A stretch of DNA of 64,000 nucleotides from Methanolinea sp. (GTDB lineage Archaea; Halobacteriota; Methanomicrobia; Methanomicrobiales; Methanospirillaceae): positions 1 through 64,000 of the forward strand of contig JADFCY010000008.1 of assembly GCA_018263335.1 (NCBI GenBank), read 5' to 3'. Each line of letters opens with the position of its first letter. Position 1 is the stretch's first letter. The position numbers and the translations under genes are program-made. This document shows, piece after piece, positions 52,479 through 63,735 of the stretch. The notes under the pieces were generated by a model. It ran no database searches. It saw only the letters and a program-made list of their open reading frames with translations, and was not told the origin of the DNA.

Positions 52479-52619
52479 ACCATTGGTGTGGGAGGCAGGG
52501 ATATTTTGATATTTCTGGTGCTGCCAGGAGAGATGCCGCCGCCACGACTACAGGGTTACCTGTCGGTCTTCGCTCTTTATGGTTTTCAACAGCGGGGAGT
52601 AAAAAATCCACTTCCTGAT

Positions 52620-54230
52620 GATACGGGATAGGTTGCGGGAAGCGCAACTGTATCAAAGCGGATAATGACAGATACCCAGCACTGGCGTTATCGTGCTTCG
52701 GGGATGCCACAGTGGCGGGGCGGAATTGCGGGAGAGTGCGGTTTGTTCCATGATGGAAACAGGGTTGAAGGGAACTTGTGACCGGAGGGGGGAGAATCCC
52801 CCCTCCAGACCACCCCCCGATACGCGATAGGTTGCGGGCAGGGTGGATGTGGAATCTCGTGATTCCAAAATCGTCCCCAGCACTGGCGTTATCGCATTTC
52901 GGGGATGCCACAGTGGCGGGGCGAAGCCCCAAGAACGTCATCGTGAGTGAGTGCGGTTAGGTTTCATCTTGGAAACGGGCTTGACCTGAGCCTTGTGACT
53001 GGAGTGGGGAGAATCCCCCCTCCAGGCCACCCCCCGAAACGCGATAGTCTGCAAGAAGAGCAAACTGGGAAACCTCGGATAATGACAAATATCCAGCACT
53101 GGCGCTATCGCGTTTCGGGGATGCCACAGTGGCGGGGCGAAGCCCCAAGAACGTCATCGTGAGTGAGTGCGGTCTGTCTCATCATGGAAACAGGGTTGAC
53201 CGGAGCCTTGTGACTGGAGGGGGGAGAATCCCGCTCCAGACCACCCCCCGATACGCGAAAGGTTGCGGGCAGGGTGGATGGGGGGTCTCGTGATTCCGAA
53301 CTCTTCCCCAGCACTGGCGCTATCGCGCTTCGGGGATGCCACAGTGGCGGGGCGAAGCCCCAAGAACGTCATCGTGAGTGAGAGCGGTTAGGGTTCATCA
53401 TGGAAACAGAGTTGACCTGAGCCTTGTGACTGGAGGGGGGAGAATCCCCCCTCCAGACCACCCCCCGAAACGCGATAGGTTGCGGGCAAGGTGAATGGGG
53501 AATCTCGTGATTCCGAACTCCCCTCAGCACCAACTCTTATCGCGCTTCGGGGATGCCACAGTGGGGGGCGAAGCCCCAAGAACGTCATTGTGAGTGAGTG
53601 CGGTCTGTCTCATCATGGAAACAGGGTTGACCTGAGCCTTGTGACTGGAGGGGGGAGAATCCCCCCTCCAGGCCACCCCCCGAAACGCGATAGGTTGCAA
53701 GAAGAGCAAACTGGGAAACCTCGGATAATGACAAATACCCAGCACTGGCGCTATCGCGCTTCGGGGATGCCACAGTGGGGGGGCGAAGCCCCAAGAACGT
53801 AATCGTGGGTGAGAGCGGTTAGGTTTCATCATGGAAACAGGGTTGACCGGAGCCTTGTAACTGGAGGGGGGAGAATCCTGCTCCAGGTCACCCCCCGATA
53901 CGCGATAGTCTGCAAGAAGAGCAAACTGGAAAACCTTGGATAATGACAGATACCCAGCACTGGCTCTATCGCGCTTCGGGGATGCCACAGTGGCGGGGCG
54001 AAGCCCCAAGAACGTCATCGTGAGTGAGTGCGGTTAGGTTTCATCTTGGAAACAGGCTTGACCGGAACCTGTGACTGGAGGGGGGAGAATCCCGCTCCAG
54101 ACCACCCCCGATACGCGATAGGTTTCGGGCAGGGTGAATGGGGAATCTCGTGATTCCGAACTCTTCCCCAGCACTGGTTCTATCGCATTTCGGGGATGCT
54201 AATGTGGGGAGGGCGTTATTGCAAAAGATT
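52620..54230. repeat. Tandem array of eight ~215-bp structured repeats
   Basis: The anchor GGGATGCCAC recurs at 52701, 52902, 53118, 53333, 53550, 53764, 53979 and, as GGGATGCTAA, 54193: spacing 201 then 214-217 bp. Each unit carries a GGGGC-GAA-GCCCC hairpin, a GCCACAGTGGC element and a long stem, CTGGAGGGGGG with CCCCCCTCCAG (for example 53430-53456). Before each anchor lies one of two alternative ~50-bp segments: A, with GGAATCTCGTGATTCC, or B, with AAGAAGAGCAAACTGG and GATAATGACA. Order: B A B A A B B A. The outer copies are the most diverged. Short minus-strand ORFs arise in each unit but look incidental. Function unknown. Confidence 0.9.
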
Positions 54231-54404
54231 GCGGTTCTGATATCAGAAACAGGCCCTGCATCGTAGGATTTCTCCAATCCAGAAAAGCTTGTGCACGGAC
54301 GTGCGAAATGGAGGTCGGAAAGTAGCATACCAGAGAAGTTGGGTTTCAAAGACTTATGGGATGAAAAATGCTTGATGTAATGCGGGAGGGAAAAAAGGAA
54401 TGGG

Positions 54405-63311: not shown

Positions 63312-63735
63312 GGCCACATTTTTCCGGCTTTTTTTTGGTTTTTTTCGCGGGAGCACTCCCGATTCCCTTTGTAAATAGAGAGTGTGTGCCTTTCAGAGAA
63401 GCAGGAAGGATGTCTTTTCTAGGGGGACCAAAGTCTTGGGGTGCCCGGGTGAGGGCGCCCTTTTCCCCTGCCGCCTCCCCGGGTACGTGACAGCGTGAGG
63501 TCTGGGTGGTGCAGGGCAACGTGATCCTTCCTTGTCACCAGTCTTGTCCTATCGTGTGGTAGGGATGCACGAGCGTGCAGGGGTATCAGCCCAGAGAGTG
63601 CCATTGTCAGAAAAAGTACGGTCCTTGATCAAGGAGAGAGTTGACCGCTAAAAAAAATGCGGGGGACGGGGAAACGCCGCGGGGGCTTTCCGCCCTTCCA
63701 TTTACCGGACGGACCCGTCGGCCGGAAAAATTTAC
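63312..63735. other. Intergenic region, convergent gene ends
   Basis: About 420 bp with no gene I can support. T-rich tracts at 63330-63349 just after the coiled-coil gene look like a terminator. The rest is GC-mixed and shows no repeats or RNA structure that I can recognise. Confidence 0.5.

Follow-up and report, generated by a model that had tools for sequence, protein, structure and literature searches.

An eight-unit mosaic array in Methanolinea and its probable origin in an order-wide family of intergenic repeats

In a Methanolinea genome (2.03 Mb, 47 contigs, 99% complete), a gene for a nitrilase-like carbon-nitrogen hydrolase (PF00795; 51666-52478, − strand) and a gene for nucleoside diphosphate kinase (NDK; PF00334; 54405-54866, − strand) are separated by a tandem array whose copies share one frame and switch between alternative internal segments. 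What kind of repeat is this, how did its mosaic arise, and does the cell depend on it? We addressed these questions on a 64-kb stretch of DNA (64,000 nucleotides, hereafter the window) and by comparison with other Methanomicrobiales genomes. The explanation that we favour, as probable rather than firm, is that the array is a local expansion of non-coding intergenic repeats found across the Methanomicrobiales, which would be MITE-derived and REP/BIME-like.

Units, hairpins, and loop types of the array

Tandem Repeats Finder detected one tandem array in the window (52734-54199, period 215, score 1937), for which a dimer period of 431 scored slightly above the period of 215. When units were delimited by cuts at the conserved motif CCCCGA[A/T]ACGCGA, the array spanned 52616-54264 and was composed of eight head-to-tail units on the + strand, with a period of 213-217 bp. 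The two approaches together recovered the eight copies claimed in a preliminary description of this DNA, which had given the period as 214-217 bp and the first copy as 201 bp. Six units are full (52815-54105), with lengths of 217, 214, 217, 215, 215, and 213 bp: unit 2 (52815-53031), unit 3 (53032-53245), unit 4 (53246-53462), unit 5 (53463-53677), unit 6 (53678-53892), and unit 7 (53893-54105). Unit 1 (approximately 52616-52814, ~199 bp) is diverged and its 5' hairpin is degenerate; unit 8 (54106 to approximately 54264) is truncated and has TTCTGATATCAGAAACAGGCC as its 3' end.

The largest stem of the unit is P1, of 16 bp (CCCCGAAACGCGATAG / CTATCGCGTTTCGGGG), whose left and right arms lie in unit 3 at 53032-53047 and 53105-53120 (+ strand) and enclose an interchangeable loop (53048-53104, +). 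The hairpin P3, GGGGC-GAA-GCCCC (53134-53146, + strand, in unit 3), falls within the most conserved core, and the hairpin PT, CTGGAGGGGGGAGAATCCCGCTCCAG (53214-53239, + strand, ahead of unit 4), marks the start of each unit in the register of the family. The stem of 11 bp previously regarded as the main one is a real hairpin, with 12 bp, located at the unit junctions, but the largest stem is P1.

The block of ~50 bp reported to alternate in the order B A B A A B B A is the loop enclosed by P1, and the same order was found here, as Y' X Y X X Y Y X. Type X (= A) is carried by units 2, 4, 5, and 8, type Y (= B) by units 3, 6, and 7, and unit 1 has a mosaic loop, Y'. Loops of one type have an identity of 80-95%, and loops of different types one of 46-57%; outside the loop, units are 89-94% identical, irrespective of the loop type carried. 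Two other variable features were present as described: a second short block with two forms (TTAGGTTTC or TCTGTCTC), and a changed right arm in three copies (CCCGCTCC in units 3 and 7, CCTGCTCC in unit 6). Across the units of the array, two features of the tail (CCTG/CCGG and the hairpin arm) are linked to the loop type, and the TTAGGTTTC/TCTGTCTC block is not. Unit 5 combines an X loop with the TCTGTCTC block, which elsewhere accompanies a Y loop, and is therefore recombinant.

The pattern had been attributed to recombination between two parental units. Recombination in the array is supported, since no single history accommodates 288 of the 630 pairs of informative sites, but two parents are too simple a picture, because X and Y are two of at least five recurring loop types that emerged across loci and species when 55 Methanolinea loops were sorted. 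Type Y occurs at 11 loci in four genomes, the types other than X and Y at three or four loci each, and type X is almost confined to the array of the window. Among the Methanolinea loops, the distance between loops and that between frames are nearly independent (correlation of 0.18). Recombination of loop subtypes, together with homogenisation of the frame, explains the mosaic, and special machinery is not needed. The resemblance of the loop blocks to exchangeable cassettes could suggest an integron-like or CRISPR-like platform for recombination or integration; however, the alternative blocks are non-coding and belong to a limited set that recurs, and none of the annotated genes beside the array encodes a recombinase or a Cas protein, which makes such a platform highly improbable.

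Distribution of the family and occupancy of orthologous gaps

The preliminary description had proposed looking for units elsewhere in the genome and in relatives. The search, carried out with a covariance model of the conserved core, yielded 22 core matches spread over several contigs of the window's genome, and the window itself holds an extra diverged single copy (63478-63623, + strand). Copies were found in 12 of the 13 Methanolinea genomes and in 25 of the 61 Methanomicrobiales genomes. The remaining Methanolinea genome (G007) is nearly complete and has no copy, and the repeat is thus dispensable. The distribution is patchy even within one genus (seven copies in G030, none in G016), and the richest genomes outside Methanolinea hold 43 and at least 52 copies. 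The core matches in named genomes all belong to Methanomicrobiales, mainly to Methanolinea, Methanoregula, and Methanoregulaceae records, and the repeat had no match in the viral contigs, phages, and plasmids searched. The Rfam scan at the gathering score identified only tRNA in the window, and at relaxed thresholds it gave no credible weak match in the array. The array thereby introduces an order-wide family of apparently mobile intergenic repeats of methanogens, which matches no Rfam family and of which the literature searched gave no earlier account in Methanomicrobiales.

Then, we compared the gap between the NDK and nitrilase-like genes among species. It contains eight units in the window's genome (G000), four in G009, at least two in G004, and one in G002; it is without units in G005, G008, G007, and G010. 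The 3' end of unit 8 (TTCTGATATCAGAAACAGGCC) is common to the orthologous locus of G002 and G009, so the array probably derives from one old insertion. The empty orthologous sites are too diverged, and the Methanolinea ends too undefined, for a target duplication to be definable there. Repeats are likewise present, in two to four species each, in three other gaps: one beside the phosphoglycerate kinase gene, one between the genes for an amidohydrolase and an AMP-binding enzyme, and one beside the gene for an RLI-type ABC ATPase. This shows that Methanolinea copies, which lack terminal repeats, persist at orthologous intergenic sites with a variable copy number.

Two side observations are recorded here. 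One and the same gene gap has repeats of the family in opposite orientations in G002 and in G000/G009 (L022 versus L013), which suggests either that one site received separate insertions or that an inversion took place. Furthermore, a stretch of ~540 bp, mostly intergenic, is identical in G000 contig C46 (L013:10801-11340) and G009 contig C67 (L019:5115-5654), although the nitrilase proteins of the two genomes are only 89% identical; this suggests a recent interspecies transfer or a shared or misbinned contig.

The comparison among loci bears on two further explanations. The array lies on a single contig of a metagenome-assembled genome, and contigs of relatives end inside such arrays (C61 and C62 of G009), so its exact copy number may be wrong and an assembly artefact has to be considered. 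The copies of the array differ from one another, however, and species whose genomes were assembled independently have arrays with shared flanks at this locus, which leaves an artefact scarcely credible. The family also accounts for a kind of repeat that tends to interrupt the assembly of these genomes.

The second is that the array serves to organise or segregate the chromosome by binding protein at its palindromes, in line with the role in segregation or replication put forward earlier. The units are palindromic and in tandem, and their sequence is kept at P3 and its flanks. Against this, each genome has many dispersed sites on both strands, the orthologous locus holds from zero to eight copies (8, 4, at least 2, 1, or 0 depending on the Methanolinea species), and the copy-free G007 already suggests normal segregation without any unit. 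We consider this reading very unlikely for the array, and, since the copy number can fall to zero, an essential chromosomal role in general is unlikely.

For 43 arrays or copies, from Methanolinea and G019, both neighbouring genes could be resolved, and every one of the 43 is intergenic. Among them, 21 lie in convergent gaps and 5 in divergent gaps, compared with 2 and 6 in a background that is small, being the 20 gaps of one window as called by a simple ORF picker. Where the neighbouring genes are co-directional, the orientation of the repeat relative to them is random.

Terminal repeats, mobility, and comparison with known systems

In G019, a genome of a related genus, the copies are mostly dispersed singly, and their similarity reaches matching inverted ends, GGCTTTGTTGAAA ... 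TTTCAACARAGCC. Sites of these terminal repeats (TIRs) number 106 in G019 versus 9 in the reversed control, an enrichment of about 12-fold. Several genomes of relatives yielded a total of 35 TIR-bounded elements (GGCTYTGTTGAMA) of 246-305 bp, 30 of which hold the core. The 8-mers flanking the 35 elements have an identity of 62%, compared to 35% by permutation (z = 8.3); the other duplication lengths from 3 to 11 reached z values of at most 3.3, and six elements have perfect 8-bp target duplications. At the level of these sequence signatures, the TIRs and 8-bp duplications show that the family moved in related genera as MITE-like DNA transposons without coding capacity. Coherently, the family is short, non-coding, multicopy, and dispersed, as MITEs are. 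Descent from a known mobile element had been named as what would overturn the preliminary description: a mobile origin is largely what emerged, but no previously named element was found.

The Methanolinea form is different. The Methanolinea copies, including the array of the window, revealed neither TIRs nor target duplications; the 8 TIR sites of the window's genome, versus 2 in the control, are not a clear enrichment; and the ends of the Methanolinea arrays, when compared, had no common terminal repeat. Here each unit starts at the hairpin PT, and an array comprises 1-8 units. For this reason, we infer the mobility of the window's own form by homology. The family thus exists in two states side by side, as transposons with TIRs in some genera and as tandem arrays without them in others, and the route from a mobile element to a settled repeat is traceable within this family.

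The search for an autonomous partner gave several negative results. Between paired TIRs in G019, only elements of ~160-500 bp without a transposase ORF were recovered. Transposases of the IS6 family (PF13610) and of the IS1595 family (PF12762) were rejected as partners, since both are absent from the copy-rich G019 and G024; the IS6-type ORFs of other Methanomicrobiales and the IS1595-type genes of G000 and G009 lack matching ends. The autonomous partner may have been lost or may belong to another family.

The ends themselves are shared more widely than the core. The strict paired-TIR pattern retrieved a single element, in G049, from another Methanomicrobiales family; this genome has 123 GGCTYTGTTGAMA end sites versus 3 in the control, yet no copy of the core. 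Moreover, G019 contains a second family of elements of ~360 bp with the same ends and another interior (...GAAACGGACATGAACCAGTAAG...; L068, L070, L072, L084). Other MITE families seem to share the GGCTYTGTTGAMA ends.

Members of the IS6 family generate 8-bp duplications and have GG tips and cTGTt/caaa motifs in their TIRs, and IS6 MITEs of 227 and 336 bp have been listed (PMC7986276). The elements of the relatives are similar in being non-coding, TIR-bounded, and flanked by 8-bp target duplications, with GG tips and CTGTTG..AAA at their ends, but the genomes richest in copies have no PF13610, and the Methanolinea copies are in tandem and without TIRs. We take the IS6 resemblance as a lead only.

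Bacterial REP/BIME are intergenic palindromic units of 20-40 bp that form mosaic clusters and tandem arrays, often downstream of a gene or where two genes converge. The family of the window similarly forms intergenic palindromic clusters, with the hairpins PT, P1, and P3; however, its units are of ~215 bp, and the Y1/RAYT transposase (PF01797) is found in none of the 13 Methanolinea genomes. Archaea also have the MITEs of Sulfolobus (mentioned, for example, in PMC3718332), which resemble our family in being short, non-coding, and mobile but belong to a host of another order. Because the window's form has no terminal repeats and no Y1 transposase accompanies it, we filed the array neither with MITEs nor with REP/BIME.

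Pairing constraint and possible roles

On the + strand, units fold better than dinucleotide shuffles (z = −4.4, −2.9, and −3.4). In the model-fitted alignment of 134 copies, 84% of the cells are paired, and the covariation of P1 and P3 is strong, with 151 double changes versus 63 in shuffled and 23-39 in slid alignments. In a structure-blind alignment of 90 Methanolinea copies, the double changes were 58 versus 34 ± 5, with shuffles kept within lineages. After thinning to <80% identity, the covariation of the core became weak (30 versus 22.7 double changes, 41/1000 shuffles). For the hairpin PT, the outer triplets are perfectly complementary in 27 of 44 cases versus 13.6 when shuffled. Tandem copies are related to one another, which raises all these counts somewhat, and overall the covariation is modest. 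Some pairing constraint on the hairpins is likely; it may act on RNA, on single-stranded DNA during transposition, or through the copying of structured master units.

Two further signals were evaluated and set aside. A pseudoknot between GCAC at the loop end and GTGC in GAGTGCGG is uninformative in Methanolinea, where both are invariant; a 7-8-bp pairing in two G032 units is absent from the other units of that genus, and the candidate was dropped. All-against-all mutual information gave a signal mostly due to loop-type linkage, not to base pairs.

An RNA or binding-site function of the family is possible. In one version of this idea, the units would be structured non-coding RNA genes (P1 with its variable loop, P3, and PT), kept in tandem for dosage or loop diversity and captured by the TIR elements of the relatives. 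The excess of double changes in both alignments and the complementarity of the PT triplets would fit, as would the loop types kept across species at separate loci. On the other side stand the weakness of covariation after thinning, the lack of an Rfam family, the random orientation relative to co-directional neighbours, and the nearly complete Methanolinea genome without a copy; we hold this reading to be possible but unlikely. A related and quite doubtful proposal is that the host has domesticated, in the Methanolinea arrays, a structured RNA (or hairpin element) of transposon origin, whose constant scaffold would carry one of a few conserved loop modules of ~50 nt, swapped by recombination among units and loci.

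In the local-expansion explanation that we prefer, a repeat inserted between the NDK and nitrilase-like genes of an ancestor would have been amplified through slippage or unequal recombination. Recombination among units as well as among loci would then have homogenised the frame and reshuffled the loop subtypes, giving B A B A A B B A. The hairpin covariation above shuffles is more than a purely neutral relic needs, and this counts against the explanation. The kept hairpins and the preference for convergent gaps may reflect the tolerance of harmless insertions or, alternatively, a mild role at 3' ends, for example in the termination or protection of transcripts from the two strands.

Finally, another dispersed hairpin repeat, with a sequence close to CCGCCGCCCCCGAAGGGCGCCCCGGCGGCGGATCAG, recurs in Methanomicrobiales genomes (L064, L069, and L104).
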